The notes below the pieces were generated by a model. That model was not told the origin of the DNA. It saw only the letters and a program-made list of their open reading frames with translations, and did no database searches. The position numbers and the translations under genes were made by a program. 30,378 nt of DNA, from positions 1-30,378 of the IMG/VR virus record IMGVR_UViG_3300036900_000103. One strand, 5' to 3'. This DNA is from a virus. Below are positions 4,866 through 19,364 of this stretch, piece by piece. How positions within the stretch are numbered: position 1 is the first letter of the stretch; every line of letters begins with the position of its first letter.

Positions 4866-5125
4866 GAGACCCTGAGCAGCCTGTCGACCAGGAGATCGAC
4901 TACATCATTACGGCCAACCTGCTGCGGCACTCCGAAACGCTCGGAGTGATCAGCGACGCCGAGACTTACCAAGTCGGCTACGACGGTGTGACCCGCATCG
5001 AGGCATTTACCAAGGCGGGCATGTATGCGGACATCCCTTACGTCCGCGTCTGGCGGGGCTCTGTCGCCCTCGCCGAGTTCTGTCAGCACAACATCGTCGG
5101 CGTCTACTTCAAGGAGCCGGCATGA
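4862..5125 (+). CDS. Hypothetical protein, 87 aa
   Basis: A small acidic protein starting at GTG 4862, whose bases overlap the upstream TGA (GTGA). It has no Cys cluster or membrane segment. The middle (YQVGYDGVTRIEAF) and the end (RVWRGSVALAEFCQHNIVGVYF) suggest a small alpha/beta fold. I do not recognise it. Its stop overlaps the next ATG as ATGA, so it is probably translated by coupling within the early operon. Confidence 0.6.
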   Translation: MRDPEQPVDQEIDYIITANLLRHSETLGVISDAETYQVGYDGVTRIEAFTKAGMYADIPYVRVWRGSVALAEFCQHNIVGVYFKEPA

Positions 5126-5331
5126 ACCGCTGCAACACCTGCTCGGCCTGGTCCGAGCTGATCGCCAAGAGCGAGGGCGGCGGCCCGGTGCAGGCCATCT
5201 GCCTGAAACCCGATTCGCCGATGCGCGGCCGCTACACCACCGGCCGCACCGGCTGCCATCAGCACTCAACTGATCCGCAGTTCGCCGATTATCCGAGCGA
5301 GCGGGCGCCGAACGCGGAGGCCCGCGGATGA
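5122..5331 (+). CDS. Small Cys-rich protein, 69 aa, putative zinc-binding
   Basis: A 69-residue protein with CNTCSAW at the N-terminus, a single Cys in the middle (AICLKP) and a C-x-H end (GCHQHS). This Cx2CxxW...C...CxxH layout occurs in many small phage proteins and probably binds one zinc ion. Its target is unknown. Start and stop both overlap neighbours by four bases (ATGA), in keeping with translational coupling. Confidence 0.6.
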   Translation: MNRCNTCSAWSELIAKSEGGGPVQAICLKPDSPMRGRYTTGRTGCHQHSTDPQFADYPSERAPNAEARG

Positions 5332-5585
5332 GCGATCCCCTCAATTGGCGCCTGGCCGTCATCCAGTGTCACGGCTTCAAAGACATCCTGCAGCTGCTCG
5401 ACCTCGACAAGCTGATTGAGGCCGGCAATTCAGCCGGGGCTATCGGCCCGATCCTCGACCCGACGCTCTACCGCGACAAAGGCGACGCCATGGAATGCGA
5501 TCTCGCCGTGTTGAAGGCGGCGCGGACGTTTATCGGCGCCATCGACGAGGCGATCGCCACAGCCAAGCGGCGAGCCGCCCGATGA
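5328..5585 (+). CDS. Hypothetical protein, 85 aa
   Basis: An 85-residue, mainly helical protein starting with MSDPLNWRLAVIQ. It is Leu/Ile rich (DILQLLDLDKLIEAG) and ends in a basic tail (AKRRAAR). There are two Cys but no metal-site spacing. It overlaps both neighbours by four bases. No family is recognised and no function is proposed. Confidence 0.55.
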   Translation: MSDPLNWRLAVIQCHGFKDILQLLDLDKLIEAGNSAGAIGPILDPTLYRDKGDAMECDLAVLKAARTFIGAIDEAIATAKRRAAR

Positions 5586-5782
5586 TGACGACGCTGCTCT
5601 GGCTCTACCTCGCCGTCGCCGCCTACTGGCTTGGCGAGTTCAATGGCGCGCCACCGTTCCGCGATCGGCCGACATGGGGCGACTTTGCCTGGAACGTCGC
5701 GGCTGCGGCGACCTGGCCGGTTGGGCTCGCGATCACTTGGACGATTGCGTTTCGGCGGCCGCTGCGGAGGGCGCGGCGATGA
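5582..5782 (+). CDS. Small membrane protein, 66 aa
   Basis: A 66-residue protein with two hydrophobic segments, near residues 4-17 (LLWLYLAVAAYWLG) and 38-56 (AAAATWPVGLAITWTIAF), ending in a basic RRPLRRARR tail. The positive-inside rule would place the C-terminus in the cytoplasm, giving a hairpin in the inner membrane. It is read with the early genes and lies far from the lysis cluster, so a holin role is unlikely. Start ATG 5582 overlaps the previous stop. Confidence 0.5.
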   Translation: MMTTLLWLYLAVAAYWLGEFNGAPPFRDRPTWGDFAWNVAAAATWPVGLAITWTIAFRRPLRRARR

Positions 5783-6018
5783 GTGAGCTCCCCGATCCCC
5801 TTGCCAACGCAACGCCCGTCGAGCTCGCCATCGCGAAGCTGGAGTTGAAGCCGGGCGACGTTCTGGTCCTGAAGATTAACCGCATGGTGTCTCACGATGT
5901 TGCCATTCGCATTCAAGAATGGGCCAAAGGAGTGGTGCCTGGAGGCGCAAAAGTAATGCTGCTCGACAGCACAGCCGATATTTCAGTCCTCCGAGCAGAA
6001 CCCGGCGAGGGTCGATGA
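5779..6018 (+). CDS. Hypothetical protein, 79 aa
   Basis: A 79-residue soluble protein. The core LELKPGDVLVLKINRMVSHDVAIRIQEW and the later GAKVMLLDSTADISVL form a plausible strand-helix-strand unit. The second half uses more A/T-ending codons (GCA, AAA, GTA, ATT, TCA) than its neighbours, hinting at recent acquisition. Start ATG 5779 shares four bases with the previous gene. The family is not recognised. Confidence 0.55.
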   Translation: MSELPDPLANATPVELAIAKLELKPGDVLVLKINRMVSHDVAIRIQEWAKGVVPGGAKVMLLDSTADISVLRAEPGEGR

Positions 6019-6485
6019 AGCCCGCGCTCACCACGTCTGCCGCGGTTCTTTTGCTCTTCACGACGGCCTGCCGCGCGCAGCAGCCGATCCTGACGTTCGA
6101 CGAACGGGTCGTGGCTCCAATTGTCATTTATGAAGCCGGCGGAGAAGAAGCCCAGTTTATCTTTGACTGGCCCGCTATAGAGAAGTGCGCGGTGCTGCCA
6201 TGGCCGAAGGCCTTCCTCGAGCGCTTCGGCGTCGCGGCATGCCGTGTGGCGCTCGACGCTCACTCCTGTCCGGCCAAGATCACTTTGGACATCCGCGAGC
6301 GCGGCTACGTGTTTCAGTGGGATCTCGACGGGTCGATGTTTGGGTTTTCTCTGCTGCTCCAACCGGTCAATCCCAAGACCCCGTCCTTCCGGTGGCCCGA
6401 GCCGGAGTACCCGCTGCGCTTCCTTGACACGGAACTCCTCATCCGTATCGCCAAAGCGGCGCGACGTTGCGAGGTGACCTCGTAA
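6015..6485 (+). CDS. Exported protein or lipoprotein, hypothetical
   Basis: A 156-residue protein with an N-terminal signal-like segment (MKPALTTSAAVLLLFTTACRAQ). It could be cut by signal peptidase I after CRAQ, or be a lipoprotein at Cys19, although the lipobox (TTAC) is poor. The mature part has three more Cys (EKCAVL, AACRVAL, HSCPAK) and one near the end. An exported protein in an early operon may alter the host envelope, for instance in superinfection exclusion, but this is a guess. The start overlaps the upstream stop as ATGA. Confidence 0.55.
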   Translation: MKPALTTSAAVLLLFTTACRAQQPILTFDERVVAPIVIYEAGGEEAQFIFDWPAIEKCAVLPWPKAFLERFGVAACRVALDAHSCPAKITLDIRERGYVFQWDLDGSMFGFSLLLQPVNPKTPSFRWPEPEYPLRFLDTELLIRIAKAARRCEVTS

Positions 6486-6586
6486 TGAAACCCGCCCTCA
6501 CCTTCCTCGCCTGGCTCGCCGTAGCTGCGTTCATCGTGATCGTAACGGAGAAGGCGCTCGAAGCCTTCATGGTCGGCCCGCCGTGA
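6485..6586 (+). CDS. Very small membrane peptide, 33 aa
   Basis: A 33-residue peptide beginning MKPALTFLAWLAVAAFIVIV, one hydrophobic helix followed by a short amphipathic tail. The start shares one base with the previous TAA, and the stop overlaps the next GTG (GTGA). The perfect fit between neighbours argues that it is a real gene despite its length. It shares its first five residues (MKPAL) with the exported protein just upstream. Confidence 0.45.
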   Translation: MKPALTFLAWLAVAAFIVIVTEKALEAFMVGPP

Positions 6587-6795
6587 CCGTCGCCTTCCTG
6601 GTCCCCCCGGTCGATCTCGGCGTCGGCGACCGCTTCGAGCTCACCCGCGAGGCCGGGCCGAAGCTGCAGCCGCGGGGTGTCCGGTTCGGCCGCATCCTCG
6701 CGGACATGGACGACTGCTGGAAAGTCCGTTTCGACGGCGCCAACCACACCCGGGTGATCCTCAAGCGGTTTATCCAGGCGGAGCGGCGGCGATGA
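6583..6795 (+). CDS. Hypothetical protein, 70 aa
   Basis: A 70-residue protein starting at GTG 6583. It resembles a small beta-barrel: VDLGVGDRFELT, VRFGRILADMDDCWKVRFDG, TRVILKRFI. The alternating hydrophobic strands and a C-terminal basic tail are compatible with a KOW- or SH3-like fold, which is only an impression. GTG is chosen because it overlaps the upstream TGA, as elsewhere in this operon. Confidence 0.55.
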   Translation: MTVAFLVPPVDLGVGDRFELTREAGPKLQPRGVRFGRILADMDDCWKVRFDGANHTRVILKRFIQAERRR

Positions 6796-7232
6796 CTGAA
6801 GCTTATCCACTGCGCTGGCCGGAGGGTTGGCCGCGCGCTCGGTCGCGGGACTGGGGTCGCTTTTCCAAGCACCTCGATACCGACCGCGCCTTTCGCGACC
6901 TCGAGGAGGAATTGAGCCGTCTGAAGGCGAGCAACGTGGTGATCAGCACCAACCTCAAGCCTCGCGGTGTGCCCAGCGATCCCAAAGCCGATCCGCGGCT
7001 CGACCCCGGCGTCGCCATCTACTTCCTCTACAACGGCAAGCAAATGAGCATGGCGCAGGACCGCTACGACACGGTGGCGAAAAATCTGCGCAGCCTGACC
7101 TTGGCCATCGACGCCATGCGTGCCATCGAGCGCCACGGCGGCGGCTACATGATGCAGCGGAGCTTCGATGGTTTCGCGCAGCTTCCGCCACCGGACGGCG
7201 TTGAGGATGCCCGCGCGGAGTTCGGTCAATGA
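6792..7232 (+). CDS. Phage protein like the N-terminal part of J-domain phage proteins
   Basis: A 146-residue protein with features of a phage family found in alphaproteobacteria: an opening YPLRWPEGWPR, then ASNVVISTNL, DPGVAIYFLYNGK, QDRYDTVAKNLRSL and ERHGGGYMMQRSF. In longer relatives this region is followed by a DnaJ-type J domain. Here the reading frame stops right after FAQLPPP plus about 15 residues, with no HPD motif, so the J domain is absent. Its molecular role is unknown. It overlaps both neighbours by four bases. Recognition is from memory of the family and has not been searched. Confidence 0.7.
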   Translation: MTEAYPLRWPEGWPRARSRDWGRFSKHLDTDRAFRDLEEELSRLKASNVVISTNLKPRGVPSDPKADPRLDPGVAIYFLYNGKQMSMAQDRYDTVAKNLRSLTLAIDAMRAIERHGGGYMMQRSFDGFAQLPPPDGVEDARAEFGQ

Positions 7233-7453
7233 GCGCGCCTACGAAAGCAGCCGTCCGCAAGGCCGACTGGGACCGCTTCAAGCTCGATGGCGGCGCGCTG
7301 GTGGTCTATCCGCCGCGAAAGGGCGGCGAGCTCGCGGGCATGGTGCCGATCTGGATCAGCGATGCGCCGCCTGCATCGGTCACAGTCCGCCCGATCCCTT
7401 TGGCGCCACGAGGAGGCGGAGGCGTCCGCAAGCTGGAGAAGGCCCATGGCTGA
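7229..7453 (+). CDS. Hypothetical protein, 74 aa
   Basis: A 74-residue basic protein (KAAVRKADWDRFKLDG, then a Pro-rich VYPPRKGGELAG and a Gly-rich RGGGGVRK end). It overlaps the start of the DUF5131 gene by eight bases and the end of the preceding gene by four. The family is not recognised. Confidence 0.5.
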   Translation: MSAPTKAAVRKADWDRFKLDGGALVVYPPRKGGELAGMVPIWISDAPPASVTVRPIPLAPRGGGGVRKLEKAHG

Positions 7454-8504
7454 CGGCAGCAGCATCGAATGGACGAACGCCACCTGGAACCCACTGGCCG
7501 GCTGCTCGATTGTCTCGCCCGGCTGTACCAATTGCTACGCGATGAAGATGGCGCATCGTGTCGGCCCGAACTTTCCGCATTATGCCGGCCTGACCACGCT
7601 CACGAAGGGCGGCCCGGTGTGGACCGGCAAGGTCACCGTGGCTCCGGACCACATCTTTCTGCAGCCGCTTCATTGGAAGAAGCCGCGCCAGATTTTCGTC
7701 AACTCGATGTCGGACCTCTTCCATGAGGACGTGCCCGACGCCGTGATCGATCGCGTATTCGCCGTCATGGCGCTTTGCCCGCAGCATACGTTCCAGGTGC
7801 TGACGAAGCGTGCCGACAGAATGCGTGAATGGTCGCTCCGTAACTCGACGGGCGGACACATTCTCCATGTCGCCAGCACGATAGGCCGGCCGCAGTCCGG
7901 AGTGTGGCCTCTGCCTGGCGTATGGCTCGGCGTCTCGGCCGAGGATCAGCGTCGAGCCGATGAGCGCATCCCGCTCTTGCTGGAGACGCCGGCGGCCGTG
8001 CGATGGGTATCGGCCGAGCCGCTGCTCGGTGCCCTTGATCTCCGGGCCTATCTTATTGGCCACGAAGAACACGGCGTCGACATGGCGCGCGAGGTCGGCG
8101 CCAGAGTAGGCGCCTGCATCGGCTGGCGGCCGCCACTCGACTGGATCGTCGCCGGTGGCGAGAGCGGCCCCAATGCGAGACCGTCGCATCCTGATTGGTT
8201 CCGCTCGCTTCGGGATCAGTGCGCCGCTGCCGATGTCCCGTATTTCTTCAAGCAGCACGGCGCCTGGGCTGACTATCGCCAGCTCGGCGCGACCGAATGG
8301 ACCTTCATCGAGGAGCGCGCCGGCAAGCGGTACGGCTTCATCGCTGACGACAAGTTCGGGATGTTCGGCGGCAGGCTGTTCGAGACGGCCTATCCGTGGG
8401 CGCGGGAAACCGAGGTTGGGCCGGGGCCGTGCATGGTGCGCGTCGGCAAGGGAAACGCCGGCGCCCTGCTCGACGGCCGCGAGCACCGGGAGTTCCCGCG
8501 GTGA
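7446..8504 (+). CDS. DUF5131 family protein (phage Gp37/Gp68), three-Cys radical-SAM-like
   Basis: A 352-residue member of the phage Gp37/Gp68 family. Diagnostic parts are IEWTNATWNPLAGC, SPGCTNCYA, FVNSMSDLFHEDVP, FQVLTKR, WLGVSAEDQ, WVSAEPLLG, WIVAGGESG and PYFFKQHG. Cys20, Cys27 and Cys30 form C-x6-C-x2-C, a spacing that resembles iron-sulfur-cluster sites of radical SAM enzymes. The family's reaction is not established to my knowledge. ATG 7446 is chosen because it places the IEWT motif at residue 7, as is normal. It is the largest accessory gene of the early operon and is followed by zinc-finger and ASCH proteins. Confidence 0.9.
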   Translation: MADGSSIEWTNATWNPLAGCSIVSPGCTNCYAMKMAHRVGPNFPHYAGLTTLTKGGPVWTGKVTVAPDHIFLQPLHWKKPRQIFVNSMSDLFHEDVPDAVIDRVFAVMALCPQHTFQVLTKRADRMREWSLRNSTGGHILHVASTIGRPQSGVWPLPGVWLGVSAEDQRRADERIPLLLETPAAVRWVSAEPLLGALDLRAYLIGHEEHGVDMAREVGARVGACIGWRPPLDWIVAGGESGPNARPSHPDWFRSLRDQCAAADVPYFFKQHGAWADYRQLGATEWTFIEERAGKRYGFIADDKFGMFGGRLFETAYPWARETEVGPGPCMVRVGKGNAGALLDGREHREFPR

Positions 8505-8782
8505 TTGTCGACGACGCCGACCCGCTGCCCGCCACGCGCCAGCTCTGCAGCCACTGCGGCGGCGGGGGCATGCTCTATACGTCGCGCTATGGCGGCAACG
8601 ATCGTGACGTCTGGCCGACCGGCGAATGCCCGGTCTGCGACGGCACCAGCTACGAGCTGATCGAGACCGAAGAGGTCGTTGACGACAACAGCTGCCCCGG
8701 CCACGTCGCGTCGCCGGACAACCCGAAGGTCTGCGGCCGGTGCGGCATCCACATCGACGAGCTGCGTCCGGAGGACGAGTGA
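8501..8782 (+). CDS. Small zinc-finger protein, 93 aa
   Basis: A 93-residue protein starting at GTG 8501, overlapping the upstream TGA. It carries CSHCGGGG and CPVCDG, the spacing of half a DnaJ-type zinc finger, and a third pair CGRCG near the C-terminus with a Cys in NSCPGH between. It is strongly acidic at its end (DELRPEDE). It may bind two zinc ions. Its partner and target are unknown. Confidence 0.6.
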   Translation: MIVDDADPLPATRQLCSHCGGGGMLYTSRYGGNDRDVWPTGECPVCDGTSYELIETEEVVDDNSCPGHVASPDNPKVCGRCGIHIDELRPEDE

Positions 8783-9174
8783 TGGTCGCTTATTCGTTCC
8801 AGCGCCAGTTCGCCGATCCGATCCTGATGGGCCGGAAGCGTCACACCGTGCGCGCACCCCGGAAGCGGCATGCCCGACCGGGCGAGGCGTTGCAGCTCTA
8901 CACCGGAATGCGCACTAAGAGCTGCCGGCTGATTGCGCGGGCGACGTGCGAATCGGTCGAGCCGATCGGGCTCTACTTCCACCGTCGGCCATCGAACGAT
9001 TGGGTGATGATCGGCGCCAGGACGCTCGACCGACCTGCGGCTCTCGACGAATTCGCCTATAGCGATGGCTTCGACGATTGGGGTGCGCTGCGAGCGTTCT
9101 GGTTGAGGCATCACGGAAGCCTGCAGAACTTCGACGGCCTCATCATCAAGTGGCGCGACATGGTGCCGGGGTGA
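8782..9174 (+). CDS. ASCH/PUA-like domain protein
   Basis: A 130-residue protein with the layout of phage ASCH-domain proteins: FQRQFADPILMGRKRHTVR, then PGEALQLYTGMRTKSCRLI. ASCH domains have a PUA-like beta-barrel that binds RNA or nucleotides and sits near translation or modification genes. Position 100 onward (FDDWGALRAFWLRHHG) is helical. The start at ATG 8782 shares one base with the previous stop. The reaction, if any, is unknown. Confidence 0.7.
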   Translation: MVAYSFQRQFADPILMGRKRHTVRAPRKRHARPGEALQLYTGMRTKSCRLIARATCESVEPIGLYFHRRPSNDWVMIGARTLDRPAALDEFAYSDGFDDWGALRAFWLRHHGSLQNFDGLIIKWRDMVPG

Positions 9175-9485
9175 AGCCGACCTATCCTGCCGAGGGCAAC
9201 GGGCGCACGATGCGCCTCGCCTGCTGCATTCCGTTCTGCCGGCGCACCTTCAAGAACGACAAGGCGGGCACGCCCTGGCCAGAGGGCGCTCAGGTGATGT
9301 GCGGCAAGCACTGGCGCATGGTCAGCCGGGATCGCCGCCGCCGGTACAGCAGGCTTCATCGGCTCTGGAAGAACAAGAAGGGCGCTGTGCAGGGCGAGAT
9401 CGCCGATCGCATCGTCAGACTGCTCAATGACGAGTTCGAGCGCTTCAAGAAGATCGCCACCGAGGCGGCGGCAGGGATCGGATGA
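9171..9485 (+). CDS. Small zinc-finger protein, 104 aa
   Basis: A 104-residue basic protein starting at GTG 9171 (GTGA overlap). An N-terminal metal site is likely from LACCIPFCRRTF and MCGKHWRMV, giving Cys and His ligands. A basic stretch (SRDRRRRYSRLHRLWKNKKG) and a C-terminal helix follow. The arrangement suggests nucleic-acid binding. No family is named with confidence. Confidence 0.55.
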   Translation: MKPTYPAEGNGRTMRLACCIPFCRRTFKNDKAGTPWPEGAQVMCGKHWRMVSRDRRRRYSRLHRLWKNKKGAVQGEIADRIVRLLNDEFERFKKIATEAAAGIG

Positions 9486-10030
9486 TGCTCACCTTCGGCA
9501 ACACCGCCGTGCCGTGGACCGTCGCCTGGTCCGGCGAGGAATCGTTCCACGTCGGAACCTGCCGCTTCACCGGTCGCCCCGCGATCTGCCAGGCCGATGC
9601 GCAAGGCGTCGGGAGACCGACCTTCGGGAAGCCGCACTGGCAGCGACAACGACAGGCGATCGCCGAGGGCCGCTGCGATCTCTGCGGCAAGCCGCTCAAG
9701 CTCGCGACCAAGGTGTCGCTATCGCATGCCCGGCCCGTCGGACATGGTGCCGAAGGGCTCGCCATCCTGCAGGTCGAGCCGCTGCTCCACAAAGCCTGCG
9801 CCGCCATCAGCATGCGGCATTGCCCGTCGCTGAGGCGCGACATCTCGGCCGGCACGCTGATGGTCCGGCAGGTCAACCGCTGGCGCGCGCAATTCTCAGT
9901 GTTGGGGCCGCAGTTCCTTCCGCTGTACGTGCCGGGTCACGTCGCCAAGCCGACGGACAGGATCATCGGCCATGCGAAGGTCGAGCTGCTGCGGTGGATT
10001 GACCGCGACGCCGGATGGCTGGACACCTGA
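9482..10030 (+). CDS. Putative zinc-binding/HNH-like phage protein
   Basis: A 182-residue protein. Residues near 65-100 contain CDLCGKPL, VSLSHARPV, VEPLLHKAC and, a little later, RHCPSL. This Cys/His pattern could be a divergent HNH or zinc module. The C-terminal half (VRQVNRWRAQFSVLG onward) has no recognised motif. The start at ATG 9482 overlaps the upstream TGA. It may be a third HNH-like protein of this genome, though key residues cannot be assigned. Confidence 0.55.
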   Translation: MMLTFGNTAVPWTVAWSGEESFHVGTCRFTGRPAICQADAQGVGRPTFGKPHWQRQRQAIAEGRCDLCGKPLKLATKVSLSHARPVGHGAEGLAILQVEPLLHKACAAISMRHCPSLRRDISAGTLMVRQVNRWRAQFSVLGPQFLPLYVPGHVAKPTDRIIGHAKVELLRWIDRDAGWLDT

Positions 10031-10031
10031 C

Positions 10032-10358
10032 ATGCTCCGCCTCGCCAACCTCGATCCCGATCCGGAGGACGACGCCGTGACCGTCGCCGTCGCGGCGCGG
10101 CGGTTGGGTTGCGCTCAGTCGACGGTGCGAGCATTGCTGGCGTGCGGTGAGCTCACTGGGCATAGGGTTGGCAAGTCGACCAAGCCCGGAGGCATTCGCG
10201 TGCACGCCATCAGCATCCGGGAATATCGGCAGCGGCACGCCATTGGGGCCAAGCCGGTGCCGGCTGATCGCGATCGCGTCGGCCGAGATAGCCAGGTTTC
10301 CCACAATCCCGGCGCCCGCGAGGCGCGGCGCGAGTTGCGCAAGCTCGGGATGCTCTAA
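10032..10358 (+). CDS. Excisionase-like helix-turn-helix protein
   Basis: A 108-residue protein with an N-terminal winged helix-turn-helix of the HTH_17/excisionase sort: VTVAVAARRLGCAQSTVRALL, then GELTGHRVG and HAISIREYR. A basic tail follows. It lies immediately before the integrase and about 1.3 kb from the attP core, which fits a recombination directionality factor that bends attachment-site DNA and promotes excision. It could instead be a transcription regulator. ATG 10032 lies one base past the previous stop. Confidence 0.7.
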   Translation: MLRLANLDPDPEDDAVTVAVAARRLGCAQSTVRALLACGELTGHRVGKSTKPGGIRVHAISIREYRQRHAIGAKPVPADRDRVGRDSQVSHNPGAREARRELRKLGML

Positions 10359-10371
10359 TACCGTCCACCCC

Positions 10372-11592
10372 ATGACGGTGTTCAAAAATCGCCAGCGCCG
10401 CAATGAATGGCGGTACGACTTCCGGCTCGACGGTCGTCGCTACTTCGGCGCCTGCATCATGCAGGGCGGGAAGCCCGCTGCGAACAAGCGCGAGGCCCTG
10501 GATGCCGAGGCCGCCATGCGCAACGCCGTCCGCGGCGCGGCGCGGACGACGCGCACGGTGGCCAGGGCGGGCACGTACACCTTCGGTCAGGCCATCATCG
10601 CGAGGCTCAATCGCAAGGTCCGAGGCTCCGATCTGCACAAGGCGAACCTCCGTCTCTATGGCCGAGAGCTGCTCGCGTTCTTTGGCGACATGACGCCGAT
10701 CGCCAGCATCACGCAGGCCGATATCGACGCCTACCGAGCGAAAGCGGCCGAGATGCCGGTCGCGGTGTGGCGTGGCGGCCCGCGCCGACGGGAGAAGATG
10801 CCGGCCAAGCTCGGGACGGGATCGCGCAAGCGGTCGCCCGCCAGCATCAATCATCGTCTCAACTTCCTAAGAGCCGTGCTCCGACAGGCACATCAGACCC
10901 GAGATCCCGTCGCCGACCGGCCGCTGCTGAAATATCCGCCGCTCGTGGAGCGCGTGCCGCAGCCCAAGCGGCAGCCCCGGCCGATGCCGGATACAGAATT
11001 CTACGCTCGAATCGACACGGCCCCGCCATGGGTCCGGGAGACGGCCGAGCTGGTGCGGTACTTCGGTCTACGGCGGGCGGAAGCGCTCGGCGTCGATCTC
11101 GGCCACATCGACTGCGACCGGAAGGCGATCCGGTTCGACGGCGACCATACTAAGAGCGGGCGGGACGAATTCGCCTATCCGCTGCCGGGCGGTTGGCCTT
11201 TCCTCCTGCGGCTTGCCAAGCAGGCCAAGGAACGCGGCCAGACCCGGCTCATCACCTGGCCGGGACCGGGATTGATGCGCGACTTCCTCGCCGGCGGGGA
11301 TGTGCCTAAGGACGCCTGGCGGCCGATCAAGAGCATCGGCACGGCCTGGCGGGCCACGGCCGGCAAGGCACAGATCGGCCGGCCCCACCGTCTGCACGAT
11401 ATCCGCGCCCGGTACATCACCGACGTGGCCAAGGTCGCCCGAGGCGTTGCCAAGGAGGCAGCCCGGCACGCCGACCCGGCGACCACTGAGCGGTACATCG
11501 CCTTCGAGACCTCGGACGTTGCAGAGGCGCTGAGAGGCGCGGCCAGACCGCAGCGGCCGGCGCTCCGGTCGGTGCGCGGCGGGAAGGCCTGA
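10372..11592 (+). CDS. int: Tyrosine-family phage integrase
   Basis: A 406-residue tyrosine recombinase that would join attP to the host tRNA-Pro gene. The N-terminal part has an arm-binding-like beginning (RNEWRYDFRLDGRRYFG) and a SAM-like core-binding domain at about 60-190. Catalytic residues are visible: Arg234 in FGLRRAEAL, probable Lys261 in HTKSG, His342 and Arg345 in LHDIRARYI, His366 in ARHADPATTERY and the nucleophile Tyr375. ATG 10372 is chosen because it begins a conventional N-terminus and clears the excisionase stop by 13 bases. No strong ribosome site is seen. The stop lies 107 bases before the attP core. Confidence 0.95.
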   Translation: MTVFKNRQRRNEWRYDFRLDGRRYFGACIMQGGKPAANKREALDAEAAMRNAVRGAARTTRTVARAGTYTFGQAIIARLNRKVRGSDLHKANLRLYGRELLAFFGDMTPIASITQADIDAYRAKAAEMPVAVWRGGPRRREKMPAKLGTGSRKRSPASINHRLNFLRAVLRQAHQTRDPVADRPLLKYPPLVERVPQPKRQPRPMPDTEFYARIDTAPPWVRETAELVRYFGLRRAEALGVDLGHIDCDRKAIRFDGDHTKSGRDEFAYPLPGGWPFLLRLAKQAKERGQTRLITWPGPGLMRDFLAGGDVPKDAWRPIKSIGTAWRATAGKAQIGRPHRLHDIRARYITDVAKVARGVAKEAARHADPATTERYIAFETSDVAEALRGAARPQRPALRSVRGGKA

Positions 11593-11596
11593 AACG

Positions 11597-11617
11597 TGTT
11601 TGGGAGAATGTTTGGGG
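11597..11617 (+). repeat. Left arm-type direct repeat pair of attP
   Basis: Two direct repeats, TGTTTGGGA at 11597-11605 and TGTTTGGGG at 11609-11617, are spaced 12 bases start to start just after the integrase stop. Matching repeats lie on the other side of the attachment core. Position, pairing and orientation suggest binding sites for the integrase N-terminal domain, but this is inference from layout. Confidence 0.55.
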
Positions 11618-11699
11618 AACGGGGCGGCGAACCACAGCAAACTGGGGCGTTCAGAAGCCCAAAATATCGCGGTTTTTCAGCGTTCTAGCTTTGCGCCGG

Positions 11700-11748
11700 T
11701 AGCTTCGGGAGCTAGGGGCCGGAGGTTCGAATCCTCTCACTCCGACCA
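11700..11748 (+). other. attP core: 3' half of a tRNA-Pro(CGG) gene
   Basis: The 49-base segment reads as the 3' part of a proline tRNA. It has an anticodon stem-loop (TAGC/GCTA at 11700-11703 and 11711-11714, loop TTCGGGA, anticodon CGG at 11706-11708) and a 5-base variable loop. The T arm follows (GGAGG TTCGAAT CCTCT), then acceptor strand CACTCCG, discriminator A and encoded CCA. A 3' G72 implies the C1 start typical of proline tRNA. No matching 5' acceptor (CGGAGTG) or D arm lies upstream, so it is not a tRNA gene here. Its place next to the integrase, with phage genes beyond, identifies it as attP. Confidence 0.85.
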
Positions 11749-11793
11749 ATGAAACCGGGGCTTTTCGGCGGTTTAGCTGGAAGGCCCCGGTGC

Positions 11794-11815
11794 CGTTTGG
11801 GAGCCCTGTTTGGAA
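11794..11815 (+). repeat. Right arm-type direct repeat pair of attP
   Basis: CGTTTGGGA at 11794-11802 and TGTTTGGAA at 11807-11815 repeat the motif found left of the core, in the same orientation and with a 13-base spacing. Together with the left pair they frame the 49-base tRNA core, like the P and P' arms of lambda-type attachment sites. Confidence 0.5.
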
Positions 11816-11965
11816 GTCCGGTCGGCGCCGCTCTCGCCGGCGTGGCCCGCCAACCCCGGAAATCTGCCCGTACAGAGGCGCCGGCCGGAAACGGCCCGGA
11901 GTGCCATCCAAGGCGCGCGCGCCTACGCCTTGCCCAAGCGCGCCGCGCCGGCCTACCAATCCGGA

Positions 11966-12289
11966 ATGGTCATTCCCTACCGCAAGATGGTCGCCGAGTA
12001 TCAGCGCCGGTACCCGCACCAGGTCCGGCTGCGGAACACCGGCGACTGGCGCTCCGACCACTGCAGCCGTGCCCACTACCAGGTGACCGGCGGCGCGCTC
12101 GTCTGGTGGCACGAGGGCACGGGCGAATCGATCTTCGGCTTCACATCGGCCGACCAGGCCGCGGCGTTCCAGCGCTGGGCAGATACCTGCGGGATCGACT
12201 GGACGGTGGAACCGCGAGCGCAGCCGCTGCCGCACCCGGAGAAGCCGCCGGAACGGCCACCGACATACGGCCCGACGCCGAGGCGCTAG
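11966..12289 (+). CDS. Hypothetical protein, 107 aa
   Basis: A 107-residue protein, the only + strand gene between attP and the late operon. The core HYQVTGGALVWWHEGTGESIFGFTSADQAAAFQRWADTCG is shortened here to its key parts: HYQV, a Trp pair, then SADQAAAFQRW and GIDWTV. This looks like a small alpha/beta fold with a Pro-rich tail (PHPEKPPERPPTYGP). No clear ribosome site precedes ATG 11966, and a TTG at 11930 in frame could extend it. Its stop overlaps the end of the convergent gene at 12286. The family is not recognised. Confidence 0.5.
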   Translation: MVIPYRKMVAEYQRRYPHQVRLRNTGDWRSDHCSRAHYQVTGGALVWWHEGTGESIFGFTSADQAAAFQRWADTCGIDWTVEPRAQPLPHPEKPPERPPTYGPTPRR

Positions 12290-12483
12290 GACCGCCTCGC
12301 CTTCGCCGCCGCCTCCTTGATCGTCAGCATGATGATCTCGTGCGCCGCCATGGCGAGACCTTGCCGGGCGACCTCCTGACCGAGCGGCCGGTCACCGAAT
12401 GCCGTTGCGATGGTCTTCAGGACGGCGGCCGTGACTTCGGTCGCGGTGACGGGCTCGAGGGCTCGGGTGCGTTTGGCGGCCAT
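12286..12483 (-). CDS. Hypothetical protein, 65 aa, late operon end
   Basis: A 65-residue helical protein (VTATEVTAAVLKTIATAFG, then GLAMAAHEIIMLTIKEAAAKARR). ATG 12483 has an AGGA ribosome site 8 bases upstream. It lies beyond the strong leftward terminator, so it would need read-through or its own promoter. It converges with, and overlaps by four bases, the + strand gene that ends at 12289. No function is recognised. Confidence 0.5.
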   Translation of the reverse strand: MAAKRTRALEPVTATEVTAAVLKTIATAFGDRPLGQEVARQGLAMAAHEIIMLTIKEAAAKARRS

Positions 12484-12608
12484 GGCGCGATCCTACCGGC
12501 GAACGGCCGCCGCCGGACGTGCGACATCTGGTGCTTCAGCACCGGCATCGGCAGGTCGGGCAGCTCGGCGCCGCAGACCGGGCACTTGTAGGGTTTCGGC
12601 TTGTGCAC
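12417..12608 (-). CDS. Small C2H2-type zinc-finger protein
   Basis: A 63-residue protein from GTG 12608. The N-terminal part has YKCPVCGAEL followed by KHQMSHV, a Cys2His2 arrangement with about a 12-residue spacing. The rest is a Pro/Arg/Ser-rich tail. The frame extends upstream to a TTG at 12653 directly after the terminator T tract, so the start is uncertain. It overlaps the next gene by 67 bases, more than any other pair in this window, and the tail may be non-native. It is a plausible but unproven gene. Confidence 0.4.
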   Translation of the reverse strand: MHKPKPYKCPVCGAELPDLPMPVLKHQMSHVRRRPFAGRIAPWPPNAPEPSSPSPRPKSRPPS

Positions 12609-12655
12609 GCCGATCAACGCGCGAGCGGCGGCGCCGGATGCCGTCTTCTGCAACG

Positions 12656-12693
12656 AAAAAAGCGCCCGCCGCGGCCGAAGCCGAGACGGGCGC
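12656..12693 (-). terminator. Strong intrinsic terminator of the late operon
   Basis: On the - strand a GC-rich hairpin (GCGCCCG paired with CGGGCGC, plus an inner CGGC-TTCG-GCCG stem) is followed by six T residues. The outer stems are 12687-12693 and 12662-12668, and the T tract is 12661-12656. It follows the last accessory gene of the lysis cluster, so it probably ends the bulk of late transcription. Confidence 0.85.
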
Positions 12694-12792
12694 GAAACGC
12701 AGGAGGCGTGGCGGCTCGGCCATGTGAGCCGCTCGCCGAGTTCTTATCAGGGAGGTCGTCTATCGCCGGGCGGGGGCCGCGCGGCGATCTCT

Positions 12793-13134
12793 TCAGCCGT
12801 CGCGACAGTGCGGCGGCAGTTCAGGCAGCGGGACCGTTTTGCCGGCCAGCGGATGGGTGCAATCGCCGAGGAATTGCAGCGAGCCGCCCTTGAGGAAGTA
12901 GTGGCAGCGCTCGGCATCGATCTTCACGCCATCGGGGAACGTGTGTTCCGGCGACGAGATATTGACGCTGGGCGAGAAGGTCGGCGCGGTGAGATTGCCG
13001 TCGAAGGTCCAGCGCGCGCCACAATGGTTCGGCGCATCGACTGCGATGTGGTGCATCTCCTCGCAGCCCGGGCACCAGTGCGCGAAGCCGTTTGTGCTGC
13101 GACGAAGGAAAGCGCTGGCTTGGCCCATCTTCAC
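12793..13134 (-). CDS. DUF6527 family protein
   Basis: A 113-residue protein matching the DUF6527 pattern: HWCPGCEEMHHI, then RWTFDGN, APTFSPSV, CHYFLKGGSLQFLGDCTHPLAGKTVPLP. The Cys and His residues suggest a metal site. Members are common in phage late regions next to lysis genes, and their role is unknown. The GTG at 13134 overlaps the upstream TGA (GTGA), while an ATG two codons later is an alternative. It is the last gene before the late terminator. Confidence 0.8.
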   Translation of the reverse strand: MKMGQASAFLRRSTNGFAHWCPGCEEMHHIAVDAPNHCGARWTFDGNLTAPTFSPSVNISSPEHTFPDGVKIDAERCHYFLKGGSLQFLGDCTHPLAGKTVPLPELPPHCRDG

Positions 13135-13559
13135 ATGCCGGTGGACGGTGGCACGAAGCAGAGGACGCCTGTGTTGGCGGTCCAGCAGAGGTGCCCATCC
13201 GGACCGCCTTGCTCCGGGTTGCGCTCGTGAATGATGCGGCGGTCGGGGATCTCGATGAAGTCGCCGCCGTGCGGCAGGCGCGCGAACCAGTGCGGCTTGC
13301 CATCGGTGCCCGTCGAGACGTGGGCCTCACTGGGCTCGCAGTCGCCTTCTTCGTGACCATCGGGACCGGTGAGCCGGGCATTGCAGCAGGAGCCCATACC
13401 GTCGGGACGCTGCCACTTGCTATAGAAATCGCGATGGAAGGGATGATGGTGCTGCGCGCCATCTTGCGCGCCGGCGGGCCGACTATTCAGGAGCATGTAG
13501 GCCCCGATCGCGGCCGCCAGCAGCAGGATGATCCAGGCCGCGAGGCGGTCGCCGCTCAT
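13131..13559 (-). CDS. Exported Cys-rich protein, hypothetical
   Basis: A 142-residue protein with an N-terminal membrane or signal segment (AAWIILLLAAAIGAYMLL). The mature part has FYSKWQRPDGMGSCCNARL, GDCEPSEAH, HWFARLPHG, IPDRRIIHERNPEQ and paired Cys near the end (HLCWT, VLCFVP). The SCC..DC motif is seen in small secreted proteins of alphaproteobacteria and their phages. It should act in the periplasm, probably with disulfides. A role in lysis or superinfection exclusion is possible but unproven. ATG 13559 overlaps the lipoprotein stop. Confidence 0.7.
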   Translation of the reverse strand: MSGDRLAAWIILLLAAAIGAYMLLNSRPAGAQDGAQHHHPFHRDFYSKWQRPDGMGSCCNARLTGPDGHEEGDCEPSEAHVSTGTDGKPHWFARLPHGGDFIEIPDRRIIHERNPEQGGPDGHLCWTANTGVLCFVPPSTGM

Positions 13560-13825
13560 GACGGCGGTGCCGATGGGCACGGCGTCGGCTTCGGAAGACC
13601 GAGCGCGGCGCGCAGCTCGTCTCGTTCGATGCCGTAGTCGTCGATCATCGTACGAAGCGCCGACCCTGTCGGCAGGGCCTCGTACTGCACCCGCGCCTGA
13701 CGTTCGAAGCTGCAGGCATAGGCCTTCGGCGTCGGCGCCGCGACGACGGGCGCCGGCGCGGCCGTCGGCGCGCAGCCGACGAGCGCCGCGATCATCGCGA
13801 GAAGGGCGAGCCTAGAATGTTCCAT
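13556..13825 (-). CDS. Outer-membrane lipoprotein, probable o-spanin (Rz1-like)
   Basis: An 89-residue lipoprotein. The signal segment ends in a good lipobox (ALVGC, lipid Cys18), followed by a Pro/Ala-rich linker (APTAAPAPVVAAPTPK), as in Rz1. The rest (YEALPTGSALRTMIDDYG) is longer than many Rz1 proteins. Its start lies inside the end of the upstream gene, which has one membrane segment and a helical tail. Such nested pairs are a hallmark of Rz/Rz1 spanins that fuse the inner and outer membranes at lysis. The assignment rests on topology and order. Confidence 0.6.
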   Translation of the reverse strand: MEHSRLALLAMIAALVGCAPTAAPAPVVAAPTPKAYACSFERQARVQYEALPTGSALRTMIDDYGIERDELRAALGLPKPTPCPSAPPS

Positions 13826-14039
13826 CGCCCAACCTCTTGTCGGTTTCGACCGGCTCGGCCGCGGCAGCGTTGATCCGCTTCTCGGCGTCGAGCGCGGCTT
13901 CGGCGTCGACCGTCTTCTGCTGCTGCTGGCCGAGCGCGATGGTGTCGGCGCGGGCCTGGCGCTGGCCGATCAGGGCCAGCAGCCACTCGCCGGCCGCCTT
14001 GAGGGCTGCGCCGGCGAGGCCGCTGAGGAGCGAGCCCAT
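13812..14039 (-). CDS. Single-span membrane protein, possible i-spanin (Rz-like)
   Basis: A 75-residue protein: an N-terminal hydrophobic segment (SLLSGLAGAALKAAGEWLLALIG) and then a charged helical tail (ARADTIALGQQQQKTVDAEAALDAEKRI) suited to a coiled coil. Its end overlaps the lipoprotein start by 14 bases. N-in/C-out topology plus an overlapping lipoprotein fits an i-spanin, although at 75 residues it is short for spanning the periplasm alone. ATG 14039 is chosen because it shares one base with the preceding TGA. Confidence 0.5.
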   Translation of the reverse strand: MGSLLSGLAGAALKAAGEWLLALIGQRQARADTIALGQQQQKTVDAEAALDAEKRINAAAAEPVETDKRLGDGTF

Positions 14040-14329
14040 CAGCCGCCAGAGGCGGGCTGAGCAGGCGTCGCCGGCATCGGCGCGATGAACGGCTGTGCGC
14101 CGGCGCACAGGATCTGAGCCGTCGATTCGGCCGTTGCCGCCGTCTTATTGGCGGCGTCGACAGCCTTGGTGATCTGCTCGGCGGTGGGCACCAGCGCGCA
14201 GCTGGCCGAGACGGCCGCCTTGACGTCGGCCGCGGTGATCGTCACCGGCTGGCCGGCGAGCGTGAAGGTGCAGGCGCCCATCGAGAGCGCCGCCACCGCG
14301 AGCGCGGTGGCAGAAGGGAATCTCATCAT
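14039..14329 (-). CDS. Exported or lipoprotein, lysis region, hypothetical
   Basis: A 96-residue protein with a signal segment (SATALAVAALSMGAC) that may be lipidated at Cys20, although MGAC is a weak lipobox. The mature part is Ala/Thr rich, helical (TAADVKAAVSASCALV, AANKTAATAEST), and contains two more Cys. A GGAG site lies about 10 bases before ATG 14329. Lying between the holin and the spanin-like pair, it may take part in lysis, but nothing proves it. Confidence 0.55.
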   Translation of the reverse strand: MMRFPSATALAVAALSMGACTFTLAGQPVTITAADVKAAVSASCALVPTAEQITKAVDAANKTAATAESTAQILCAGAQPFIAPMPATPAQPASGG

Positions 14330-14375
14330 TTGTCGGTCTCCTCGAAGTTGGCCGGAAGCCCCCGGCCGTGGGATT

Positions 14376-14936
14376 TCAGGCCGCGTGCGCGACGTCGGGC
14401 GTCGGCACCGCGATCGAGGCGGCAGACGGCGTCGTATTGAGCGTGAGGCGCGCCTCGATCTTCTGGGCCAGCAGATCGGGCGTGACGCCGAGGGTCTTGA
14501 TGGCGTCGGGCACGTGGTCGGCGGCATAGCGCGCCGCGATCGCCACGGCCTCGTTCTTGACGTCGACCATCAGCGGACCATTGCCGATCTTCCCGGCGAG
14601 CTGGCTCTGCGCGAAGGCGAGCCCATTGGTCATCGCGGTTTCCAGCATGCCGGAAAGCCGGGCGTTCTTGTCGAGGCCGAGGCGGACCTCGATCTGCCGC
14701 AGCGCCCAGACGCCGAGCAGGGCGACCAGCGAGCCGACGAACGGCAGTACGTAGTTCGCGAGCAGCGGGCCGACGTCGACCGATGTCGACGCGGGATCCG
14801 CTGCGGCGGCGAGGCCGGGCAGCAGGATCGCGAACAGGACCGCACCGACGACGGCAGCGGCGCGGCGGCCGCCGAGGATGGTCGCCAGGATGCAGGCAAG
14901 GCAAAGCGCGCGCAGAAGGCGCAGATGGTTCTTCAC
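14376..14936 (-). CDS. Holin, LLH family
   Basis: A 186-residue protein with N-terminal hydrophobic segments (AVVGAVLFAILLPGLAAA and YVLPFVGSLVALLGVWAL) followed by a helical domain typical of the phage LL-H holin family. Visible motifs are ETAMTNGLAFAQSQ, LMVDVKNEAVAIAARYAADHVPDAI and LGVTPDLLAQKIEARL. It would form membrane lesions that release the endolysin. GTG 14936 has an AAAGGA ribosome site. The gene is separated from the endolysin by an oppositely oriented HNH gene. Extra length before the family domain (about 50 residues) may act as a signal. Confidence 0.8.
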   Translation of the reverse strand: MKNHLRLLRALCLACILATILGGRRAAAVVGAVLFAILLPGLAAAADPASTSVDVGPLLANYVLPFVGSLVALLGVWALRQIEVRLGLDKNARLSGMLETAMTNGLAFAQSQLAGKIGNGPLMVDVKNEAVAIAARYAADHVPDAIKTLGVTPDLLAQKIEARLTLNTTPSAASIAVPTPDVAHAA

Positions 14937-15011
14937 GGGTCGGTCCTTTCAGGTTGTCGGGGGAGCGCCGGATAGGTGCGCACGTCCGGCTCGGCGTGCT
15001 AAAAAACTGGA

Positions 15012-15446
15012 ATGGCCAAAACAGCGGCGAAGCGGCGGTGCGCTATCTGCGCCAGGCCTTTTCGATCAAACTACCGGCATGCCAAGACATGCGGCGCGCC
15101 GGCGTGTCAAGTGGGCGCGAAGAGAGCGAGCAAGCGGCGCTGGTATCGTCGATATGCCGATCTAATCAAGGCGAAGAAGCGCCGTCGTTTTGCGACAGAC
15201 GCGAACGCAAGGGCGGCCATCCTGGCGGCATCACAGCACGCGAGATTTAACGGCCTGAGAGAGAGTCGCCTCAAGCTCGACGGCTATAAATGCTCATGCG
15301 GGAGAACGGATAGGCTTGTGGTTCGCCATAAGCGCCCAATGCCGACCCGCAGCACGACCGACAGAGTGAGCAAGCTGTGGGATTTAAAAACGATGTGCCG
15401 CGCCTGCAACCTCGCCATCAATTCAGGCCGAGCGCTTTTCGGCTAG
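15012..15446 (+). CDS. HNH endonuclease-like moron in reverse orientation
   Basis: A 144-residue basic protein with an N-terminal zinc finger (CAICARPF, KTCGAPACQ), a basic linker (SKRRWYRRYADLIKAKKRRR) and a C-terminal HNH-like module (YKCSCGRTD, VVRHKRPMP, WDLKTMCRACNLAIN). It is the only + strand gene within the late cluster. It sits between endolysin and holin and overlaps the endolysin end by 29 bases. AGA, AGT, TTT and AAA codons and a lower GC content set it apart. These are the signs of a mobile homing-type endonuclease gene. Its layout matches the protein at 3227-3763. Confidence 0.75.
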   Translation: MAKTAAKRRCAICARPFRSNYRHAKTCGAPACQVGAKRASKRRWYRRYADLIKAKKRRRFATDANARAAILAASQHARFNGLRESRLKLDGYKCSCGRTDRLVVRHKRPMPTRSTTDRVSKLWDLKTMCRACNLAINSGRALFG

Positions 15447-16212
15447 CCGGACCGATGATGCCATCGGACACCAGGCCGATGGCGTGCTGCCAGTCGGCAA
15501 TCACCCGGAAGGTCTGCGGACCAAAGGCACCGTCAACCGGCACGATGCCGAGTTTCCGCTGCACGGCCTCGACGTCGGGCCCGTGACAGCCTTCGAAGAG
15601 ATCGCGCGCGCCGACCGGCGGCGGTGGCGGGTCATTGATCGGGAGCTTCGGCCAATCCCTCGAGGCCGCCGCCGGCGCCACGATGCCTATGCTGGCGCGC
15701 GGCTCGACACTCTTGAGCCGGCCGAGCTCGTCAAGGCTGTGCACCTGGCGGTACGGATAGACCGGGCACGGCCGCGGATCGATCTCGCAATGGCCGTGGA
15801 AGGTCACCGGCGTGCCCAAGCCGAAGTAAACCGAGTCGATGGCCACCATGAGGGCGTGCGTCGCGGCCAGGCTCTCCGGGGTGAAGTCTTTGCTGCCGTG
15901 CGTCGAGATCGCAATCGTGGCGACGTTGCCCATGTGCACCATGGCCGGCTCGACCAGCGGCACCTCGCCGAGCTGCGCCGCCGGTGTCAGCTCGAGCGGG
16001 CGGCCGGTCACCACAACGCCCGCTTTGTCGACCACGAAATTATAACCGATGCCGGCCCACCCGTTGGCGAGGTGCCAGCGGTTGACTTCCTCGGCCAGGC
16101 CGACGCCGGCGAGCGCCGCGTTGTCGGAATCGGTGCAGTGCAGGAAGACGCGCGTCACCTTGCGTGCGGGCGCGCGAAAGCCTGCCGGGTCGAACGGCCG
16201 GAATTCCCACAT
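15418..16212 (-). CDS. Endolysin: N-acetylmuramoyl-L-alanine amidase with peptidoglycan-binding domain
   Basis: A 264-residue lysis enzyme that cuts the amide bond between N-acetylmuramic acid and the stem peptide. Residues of about 18-160 form an Amidase_2 domain with zinc ligands His25 (VFLHCTDS), His141 (HGHCEI) and Cys149 (RPCPVY), plus Tyr57 in IGYNF. A Pro-rich linker (INDPPPPPVG) leads to a PG_binding_1 domain at about 208-264 (GPDVEAVQRKLG, DGAFGPQT, DGIIGPASRKAL). There is no signal peptide, so it depends on the holin for release. Order and length are normal for the family. Confidence 0.92.
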   Translation of the reverse strand: MWEFRPFDPAGFRAPARKVTRVFLHCTDSDNAALAGVGLAEEVNRWHLANGWAGIGYNFVVDKAGVVVTGRPLELTPAAQLGEVPLVEPAMVHMGNVATIAISTHGSKDFTPESLAATHALMVAIDSVYFGLGTPVTFHGHCEIDPRPCPVYPYRQVHSLDELGRLKSVEPRASIGIVAPAAASRDWPKLPINDPPPPPVGARDLFEGCHGPDVEAVQRKLGIVPVDGAFGPQTFRVIADWQHAIGLVSDGIIGPASRKALGLN

Positions 16213-16230
16213 GGTCGGTTGTCCTTTGGT

Positions 16231-16563
16231 CTAGGGGTTGCCGCTGGTCGGCTGCGGCCGCATCGGCGTGAAGCCGAAGACGCGGCCCTCCACGACGCCG
16301 AGCCGGCGCTCATGCTCATCAATCCGCCCGGCCTGGCGCGCGCCGTCGGCGGTGTCCTTGGTGATGTAGGCCGTGAGTTCGCGGCGCATCGACTTCACCT
16401 CGCCGGTGAGGTCGGCAAAGAACCATCCGGCGATCGCTACCAGGGCGCCGACGAACGGCGGAAACACGACCATCGAGACGCGCGCATAGCCTTGAAGGGC
16501 GATGTTCCGCGCCACCGCCTCGATGCGCTTGCGCTCACCGTTGCCGTTCTCGATATCAGCCAT
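16231..16563 (-). CDS. Single-span membrane protein, lysis region
   Basis: A 110-residue protein with a charged cytoplasmic start (MADIENGNGERKRIEA), one membrane segment near residues 30-50 (SMVVFPPFVGALVAIAGWFF) and a charged helical tail likely to be a coiled coil (GRIDEHERRLGVVEGRV). It lies just before the endolysin in transcription order. Topology would allow a second holin-type protein or an i-spanin, so it competes with the gene at 13812 for that role. The family is not recognised. Confidence 0.6.
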   Translation of the reverse strand: MADIENGNGERKRIEAVARNIALQGYARVSMVVFPPFVGALVAIAGWFFADLTGEVKSMRRELTAYITKDTADGARQAGRIDEHERRLGVVEGRVFGFTPMRPQPTSGNP

Positions 16564-16579
16564 TCACACCTCCCCGAGA

Positions 16580-18136
16580 TCAGGCGTCGCGGCCGCGGCG
16601 ATCGGTCCAGCCGAGCGTGACGCACCGAACCGCGTCCGACGCACCGGACGCCGATATGCGGTAGCGCACTTGCGCGCTGGTGTTGGTGCGGACGGTCATT
16701 TGAGCGCCCGCGCTTTCGCCGGTGTTCACGCCGCCGAAGTTGTGGAAGCCGGTCGCGCGCACTGGCACCTCATCGCTGGCGGCGGGGTCGCTGATATAGC
16801 CGACGAAATCGTTGGAGCCGGTCGTGGCCGAAATCAGAAGCAGCGCCAGCACGCTCACGCCCGACGGCACGCCGGAGAGCGTCTTGCTGACCGCCGACGT
16901 GCCGGGGTTGGTATCGGCGAAGTCGGCCACCATCGCCGACCACCGGAAGTAATCGCCGTCCTGCGTAAATGCCAGGATGTGCGAGGAGCCATCCGTCTTG
17001 AAACTGCCGATGCGGCGCTTGAGCGTATAGCCGCTCGGCATGGTCGGCGCCGAGGCCGACGTCGACGCCAAGAAAGCCGTGGTGCCGTCCGTCTTGCCGA
17101 TGGCAAAGGCGTGATACCACGTCGAGGCACCGAGGCTGCCGGTGTCCAGGCCATTGGCGCCCGTCGTGCCGCAGTCGATCGTGCCGGCGGACATGGCGAG
17201 CATGGCGGCCGCCGTGCCGTCCGCGCATTGGCCAGCGGCGACGTCGATCTTGGTATTGGGCGTGCCGCCGTTGTTCGACATGCCGAGACCGGCCAGGTGT
17301 GAGCGAATCACCTCAGTGGCTGGCACCACGTAGTCGGCGATCCACTTCGACCGGGCGCCGTCCCAATCGAAGCGTGTCACGCGGCCCGGCGGCGCAGTGG
17401 CGAGGTCGGTGGTGTCGGCGCCGCCCGGTGTGAACGTCACGCCGTTGGCAGTGCTGCCGTAGGGATAAACGAAGACATAGGCGCCGTGGCCCATGCCGGC
17501 GGCGTCATGCGCCAGCATGGTGAGCGTGCGGCCCGCGGCCGAGCAGTCGAAGGCCAGCACCTTGCCGATATCATCGGCGGTGAAGGTGTAGGACGCCGCG
17601 CCCTTGTCCTCAAATTTCTTGCGCTGCGAGGCGGCGAAGATGTGGGTGGCGCCGGCGTCGAGACCGAGGTGAAACCGGCCCTCTTCGGCATGGCTCGCCG
17701 CGGCGGTGCGGGTGCCGCTGATATAGCGCTTCTTCGCCCATTCGACGGCGACGCCGATGGCAAAGTCGAGCCACATCGCGCCGGCCGGCAGCCAACCCGG
17801 CACGGCCGCGACACCGTTGACCAGGGCGGCGAGAAGATGCTTGGCCGCTGCCGCGTTCGGCGCGTTGTAGATGCGGTAAGGTGTCGTCTGCCAGTCGATG
17901 AGCGCGCCGCTCGAGCTCTCCTGCAGGGTCCGCGTCAGGGTGTCCGGCGTGCCCGTCGTGAAGATGCCATAGCCGATCTCCCAGATGGTGCCGGTGTCGT
18001 TGGTGGCGAGATAGAACGCGGCGTCACCGCTCGAGAAGCCCGAGCGCCAGGTGCGGAAGGCACCATAGGCCCCGCCCATCGCGAAGGTGCCCGTACCGGT
18101 GGTCGTGCTGGCTTCGCCGATCTTGTCAGCAAACAT
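16580..18136 (-). CDS. Tail fibre/tail tip structural protein
   Basis: A 518-residue virion protein. The first 80 residues (ASTTTGTGTFAMGGA, AAFYLATNDTG, WEIGYGIFTTGTPDTL) match a common N-terminal module of phage tail and fibre proteins, and a related copy starts the protein at 22996-23604. The middle (ASYTFTADDIGKVLAFD, GRTLTM) is beta-rich. The C-terminal part from about residue 320 (ADGTAAAMLAMSAGTIDCG, WYHAFAIGKTDGT, MPSGYTLKRRIGSF) resembles receptor-binding domains. An AGGAAGG site lies upstream. It is probably distal in the tail and involved in host recognition. Confidence 0.75.
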   Translation of the reverse strand: MFADKIGEASTTTGTGTFAMGGAYGAFRTWRSGFSSGDAAFYLATNDTGTIWEIGYGIFTTGTPDTLTRTLQESSSGALIDWQTTPYRIYNAPNAAAAKHLLAALVNGVAAVPGWLPAGAMWLDFAIGVAVEWAKKRYISGTRTAAASHAEEGRFHLGLDAGATHIFAASQRKKFEDKGAASYTFTADDIGKVLAFDCSAAGRTLTMLAHDAAGMGHGAYVFVYPYGSTANGVTFTPGGADTTDLATAPPGRVTRFDWDGARSKWIADYVVPATEVIRSHLAGLGMSNNGGTPNTKIDVAAGQCADGTAAAMLAMSAGTIDCGTTGANGLDTGSLGASTWYHAFAIGKTDGTTAFLASTSASAPTMPSGYTLKRRIGSFKTDGSSHILAFTQDGDYFRWSAMVADFADTNPGTSAVSKTLSGVPSGVSVLALLLISATTGSNDFVGYISDPAASDEVPVRATGFHNFGGVNTGESAGAQMTVRTNTSAQVRYRISASGASDAVRCVTLGWTDRRGRDA

Positions 18137-18164
18137 GATTGCCTTCCTGTCGTGGGTGGGCGGG

Positions 18165-19076: not shown

Positions 19077-19089
19077 CTGGAAGTTCCGA

Positions 19090-19350: not shown

Positions 19351-19364
19351 TTCACTCTCTCCCT

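Follow-up and report, generated by a model that had tools for sequence, protein, structure and literature searches.

Rhizobium phage 16-3 (DQ500118) possesses an attP/int system that targets tRNA-Pro(CGG) in Sinorhizobium meliloti, and the Sinorhizobium prophage 3LM21 resides in tRNA-Pro(CGG), where a 57-nt sequence is duplicated and integration restores the gene (PMC5537653). Among the 3919 islands of Islander, 2083 are centred on the anticodon (subsite A), 3760 carry 3' fragments and 159 carry 5' fragments of the target (PMC4383910). Here we analysed a 30,378-nt viral contig, referred to as the window in its entirety, in which positions 11597-11815 almost certainly constitute the attP of a temperate siphophage-like phage using a host tRNA-Pro(CGG) gene.

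A half tRNA-Pro(CGG) gene and its host counterparts

Positions 11700-11748 (+ strand) of the window correspond to the 3' half of a tRNA-Pro(CGG) gene, the 5' half being absent from the whole window. The segment reads TAGC TTCGGGA GCTA GGGGCC GGAGGTTCGAATCCTCT CACTCCG A CCA and comprises, in this order, the anticodon arm from its fourth stem pair inward, the variable loop, the T arm, the acceptor strand, the discriminator and CCA. The stem strands TAGC (11700-11703) and GCTA (11711-11714) enclose the loop TTCGGGA (11704-11710), which contains the anticodon CGG. Just outside the stem G11699 stands opposite G11715, the host genes having a C at the position of G11699, and the phage bases preceding the core, GCGCCGG, do not continue the tRNA. 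ARAGORN called zero tRNAs in the window, which therefore contains no complete tRNA gene. The initial annotation, which had described a 3' half of tRNA-Pro(CGG) with its parts in the correct order and no 5' half, was thus correct to the base.

The 49-mer was searched in 84,980 bacterial and archaeal species genomes, one per species, and was found exactly in 67 genome stretches; since all 49 bases are identical in each of them, the match is not a chance one. The titles of all 67 records indicate Alphaproteobacteria or unassigned Proteobacteria, and the taxa matched include Reyranella, Enhydrobacter, Vineibacter, Ferrovibrio, Zavarzinia, Hyphomonas, Parvularculaceae and uncultured Rhodospirillales. 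A complete gene ending in the 49-mer occurs in 66 of the 67 stretches, with the missing 5' half CGGAGTGTAGCTCAGCCTGGTAGAGCAC standing before it, and ARAGORN identified tRNA-Pro(CGG) in 25 of the 26 loci checked, the remaining one (L031) giving no call. The host sequence reads ...GAGCAC-TAGC... in the same 66 stretches, so that identity with the phage starts exactly at 11700 and not one base further 5', while 3' of CCA it continues for 0-4 bases. Host identity had previously been placed near 11700, an estimate sharpened here to exactly that base in 66 of 66 complete host genes. The border of the host-identical part lies within the anticodon arm, as in tRNA-gene attP sites of the anticodon sublocation.

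The 67th match, L031, comes from Rhodospirillales bacterium URHD0017 (G023). It represents a displaced 3' half, identical to the intact gene from the same base onwards. This fragment lies 30 bp past a tyrosine integrase gene, and behind it comes ATCGGGACAAACGGCGCGCAGCGATGCGCG, which in Reyranella relatives stands after the intact gene; the contig also contains the intact gene, 39.9 kb further upstream. L031 marks a different element that occupies this site with an identical left border and has another integrase. Among the largest genes of the 39.9 kb interval (G023:C21:90935-130852; L099-L101) are those for a KAP NTPase, a molybdopterin oxidoreductase, Ku and Prim-Pol, so that the interval is a genomic island; it was considered as a related prophage and rejected on account of its integrase, 22% identical over 299 residues, and its non-phage gene content.

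Extra copies of the segment were detected in 6 of 50 genomes matched by the 49-mer, seven copies in all, six of which lack the tRNA 5' half while the seventh (G026:C190) retains part of the D arm. The anticodon loop (TTCGGGA or TTCGGAA) is whole in every displaced copy and identity usually ends just 5' of it, which points to a crossover within the loop, probably used repeatedly by different elements. The intact gene and the displaced half share one contig in URHD0017, L102 and L103, these being other elements and not copies of this phage. No integrated copy of the phage itself was found in this set of one genome per species. The initial annotation had inferred a tRNA-Pro(CGG) gene as the host target and had suggested a search for alphaproteobacterial genes matching the 49 bases and for related prophages inserted there with a duplicated 3' half. 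Such genes were found with all 49 bases identical, and so were elements inserted in this way, most clearly the non-phage island of URHD0017, whose own integrase lies beside the fragment. The 66 complete genes together with the occupied sites support the proposed target gene.

Arms and integrase of the attP site

Two pairs of direct repeats flank the core. A scan of both strands of the 30,378 bases located the motif YGTTTGGRR at exactly four places, always on the + strand and twice on each side of the core. P1 (TGTTTGGGA, 11597-11605) is followed after 12 bp by P2 (TGTTTGGGG, 11609-11617), while beyond the core P'1 (CGTTTGGGA, 11794-11802) is followed after 13 bp by P'2 (TGTTTGGAA, 11807-11815). 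When the flanks were shuffled, repeat pairs on both sides arose in 0 of 5000 trials, and a variant of the test that presupposed no motif gave 0 of 300. Repeats on both sides of a core are typical of the arm sites of lambda-like attP, and the plan, including the 12 and 13 bp spacings, is conserved in two free phage contigs, L137 and L138, described below. The four repeats are thus those expected of arm-type sites and are probably bound by the integrase. No close match to an IHF site was detected near the core using the strict E. coli consensus, from which that of the host may differ.

The gene ending immediately upstream of P1 (10372-11592, +) encodes a protein of 406 amino acids that matched PHROG_1 integrase with an E-value of 3.3e-33. 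Pfam returned no match for this protein, the cut-off of Phage_integrase (PF00589) not being reached, and its relatives scored 18.5-26.6 bits against the cut-off of 27.1. A curated score cut-off is an aid to detection and not a biochemical criterion. In the family alignment the expected catalytic set R234, K261, H342, R345, H366 and Y375 is invariant between the window integrase and six relatives. The PHROG_1 match, these residues and the relatives, themselves below the Pfam cut-off, indicate that the protein is a divergent tyrosine integrase. Directly upstream, positions 10032-10358 (+) encode a small helix-turn-helix protein (Pfam HTH_17, E 1.7e-4; 22.2 bits against a cut-off of 27), and a similar protein precedes the integrase gene in the relative from genome G470. 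This product is a candidate excisionase (recombination directionality factor).

The genes to the left of the core are of recombination type, namely a PDDEXK-type DUF3799 protein, AAA proteins, DUF5131 and the integrase, whereas those to the right encode tail and tape-measure proteins. This arrangement bears on the possibility that the window represents a prophage end (attR), with host chromosome following 11748, as might be thought from the attR of URHD0017, which likewise consists of a displaced 3' half beside an integrase gene. In the window, however, phage genes lie on both sides, a second pair of arm repeats stands beyond CCA and identity to bacterial tRNA loci extends at most four bases past CCA, making such a reading very improbable. 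Because phage DNA and matched arm repeats flank the core on both sides, we consider it an attP and not an attL or attR. The proposal of the initial annotation that the segment is an attP core is therefore upheld, with the integrase just upstream, paired arms and the same layout in two related phages.

The DUF5131 gene (7287-8504) encodes a long protein with a Pfam E-value of 2e-89, and its DNA gave the sole megablast match of window positions 1-20000 to known phages, about 81% identity over 130 bp in Microcystis phages.

A 13-bp hairpin with no T run follows just past CCA (11757-11788, +), and the RNA fold of 11749-11830 reached -45.8 kcal/mol with a z value of -4.4. Since tRNA genes do occur in phages and this stable hairpin stands directly after the segment, a decayed phage tRNA gene, or a tRNA fragment with a role at the RNA level, could be envisaged with no relation to integration. 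We give this explanation hardly any credence: the segment is undecayed, its identity to host genes breaks off sharply at a single point within the anticodon stem, the integrase gene lies about 100 bp away, and the symmetric arm repeats are conserved in relatives carrying different tRNA halves. In the attP interpretation, the hairpin might bound the transcript of the restored tRNA after integration. Shortly downstream, the 17-mer CCCCGGAAATCTGCCCG (11854-11870) recurs at L137:2768, at L156:2629 and on the minus strand of L162, its copies standing shortly past attP or the integrase gene in several otherwise different phage contigs; L159 contains two copies of CCGGAAATCTGCCCG, a part of the same 17-mer.

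That the site is a non-functional attP relic of another element, the present integrase using a different site, would be in keeping with the failure to find a lysogen, but the repeats and their spacing agree with the sites of related integrases and YGTTTGGRR is found nowhere else in the window, so this explanation too is highly unlikely.

On the preferred reading, an attP whose phage has probably kept its ability to integrate, the integrase would bind the two direct repeats of each arm as well as a core that has the anticodon stem-loop at its centre. The phage core would recombine with its stem-loop counterpart in the host tRNA-Pro(CGG) gene, a putative 7-bp crossover (overlap) region, the anticodon loop at 11704-11710 (+), lying between the inverted half-sites TAGC and GCTA; retention of this loop in the displaced copies is consistent with such a position. 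Integration would then fuse the host 5' half and its promoter to the phage 3' half, keeping the tRNA gene whole, and would move the host 3' half to the far, integrase-side end of the prophage. The predicted lysogen junctions read GAGCAC-TAGC...CCA-ATGAAACCGGGG and GCGCCGG-TAGC...CCA-host.

Integrase relatives, probable host and the two tRNA halves

The 49-mer had no match in viral contigs, and the window integrase, used as a single query, returned no match in viral contigs, phages or plasmids (tblastn for the last two). It took searches of whole genomes, and alignments, to reach its relatives. Strong integrase matches were confined to one genome (G404) among 385 class-wide genomes, and relatives were detected in 8 of the 76 genomes of its order, which includes R. 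massiliensis (G016), Enhydrobacter (G036), Vineibacter (G003) and URHD0017 (G023). Matches of a wider integrase profile were again confined to this order. As at least 32 of the 76 genomes carry the exact 49-mer and integrase relatives occur in the same order, the host is likely a member of the Reyranella/Enhydrobacter/Vineibacter order.

The two free phage contigs, L137 (IMGVR_UViG_3300010885_035212; region L137:2500-2716) and L138 (IMGVR_UViG_3300044533_001341; region L138:4221-4425), encode related integrases, that of L138 being 46% identical. Both resemble the window in the succession of integrase gene, repeats 12 bp apart, half tRNA starting from the anticodon loop and repeats 13 bp apart. 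The distances from the P repeats to the core are 103 and 91 bp in the window, 104 and 92 bp in L137 and 105 and 93 bp in L138, and in the two contigs about 90 bp separate two GTTGGGG repeats from the half tRNA. Their arm repeats have the sequence GTTGGGGA instead of the TGTTTGGRR of the window, and they carry the 5' half of tRNA-Arg(TCT) (L137) or tRNA-Arg(CCT) (L138), antisense to the integrase gene, whereas the window carries a 3' half.

The same alternation was observed among integrated relatives. Genome G404 shows a displaced 5' half of tRNA-Arg(CCT) with the intact gene 35.8 kb away (C1:1594811 and 1630625), G435 a tRNA-Gly(CCC) 5' half beside the integrase gene with an intact copy at 50.3 kb (C272:5221 and 55512), and G456 a tRNA-Arg(TCT) 5' half with an intact copy at 8.6 kb (C1:2476027 and 2484612), while 5' halves of tRNA-Arg(TCT) and tRNA-Arg(CCT) stand beside the integrase genes of G451 and G469 respectively. 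The layout of the window recurs in R. massiliensis, where a 3' half of tRNA-Thr(TGT) stands beside an N-terminally short integrase and the intact gene lies 6.7 kb away. In the Vineibacter genome (G003) the integrase gene stands beside an intact tRNA-Pro(GGG) and the displaced 3' half lies at a distance of 51.5 kb, which resembles the arrangement in phage 16-3. Repeat pairs were found at both ends of the elements in G404, G435, G456, R. massiliensis and Vineibacter, and the integrated relatives, Vineibacter excepted, have the intact tRNA at one end and the displaced half at the integrase end. Within the G404 interval (C1:1594811-1630701), two related integrase genes stand 8.5 kb apart in the same tRNA-Arg(CCT), one of them with an in-frame TAG, possibly reflecting tandem or nested elements.

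In the frame of the integrase, again with the exception of Vineibacter, the order is constant for both halves, i.e., integrase gene, repeats, anticodon stem-loop, half tRNA and repeats, and only the tRNA strand changes between 3'-half and 5'-half members. The sense 3' halves derive from tRNA-Pro(CGG) and tRNA-Thr(TGT) and the antisense 5' halves from tRNA-Arg(CCT and TCT) and tRNA-Gly(CCC), and the layout of the arms is the same in both groups. The near-palindromic form of the stem-loop would permit use of either tRNA strand. In the integrase tree the 3'/5' labels require three changes in the best topology, with at least one forced, and 150 of 500 label shuffles gave values as low. In that topology a 3'-half member falls among 5'-half members, which suggests that the direction could have changed repeatedly.

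There is about an even chance that a single integrase family, seen so far in one alphaproteobacterial order and its phages, recognises several tRNA anticodon stem-loops in either direction and that its 5'-half phages replace the promoter. Since these relatives carry or displace the tRNA 5' half, the sequence upstream of the restored tRNA is element-derived in their lysogens, and the host tRNA promoter would be exchanged for one belonging to the phage.

Comparison with known tRNA-targeting systems

These results fix the integration site and the attP anatomy of a phage contig that was otherwise unassigned, together with its probable host order, and expose an integrase family that builds the same attP plan on either tRNA half. 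They also raise the testable question of whether an almost palindromic anticodon stem-loop enables a single lineage of integrases to alternate between 3' and 5' restoration, that is, between leaving and replacing the tRNA promoter.

The strategy itself is ordinary, rhizobiophage 16-3 exploiting this tRNA in the same manner, and is found here in a little-studied integrase family. The annotated attP core of 16-3, CTTTCACGTTCGGGACGTGGGGG, corresponds to the anticodon stem-loop and is followed by the 3' half through CCA, as in the window, whereas the stem and T-arm sequences differ. Comparison of the two integrases by blastp returned no significant match (best E 0.94) and hence no indication of homology. 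In 16-3 the integrase gene lies on the CCA side and reads towards the core, while in the window it lies on the anticodon side and would therefore stand beside the displaced fragment after integration. Prophage 3LM21 shares the isoacceptor with the window and has a different host. With the subsite A islands of Islander the window shares a putative anticodon-loop crossover, a displaced tDNA fragment and its 3' nature, while its 5'-fragment relatives are of a type with only 159 representatives among the 3919 islands. What is added to these known systems is that the half of the target tRNA carried by relatives of the window integrase is in some the 3' and in others the 5' one.
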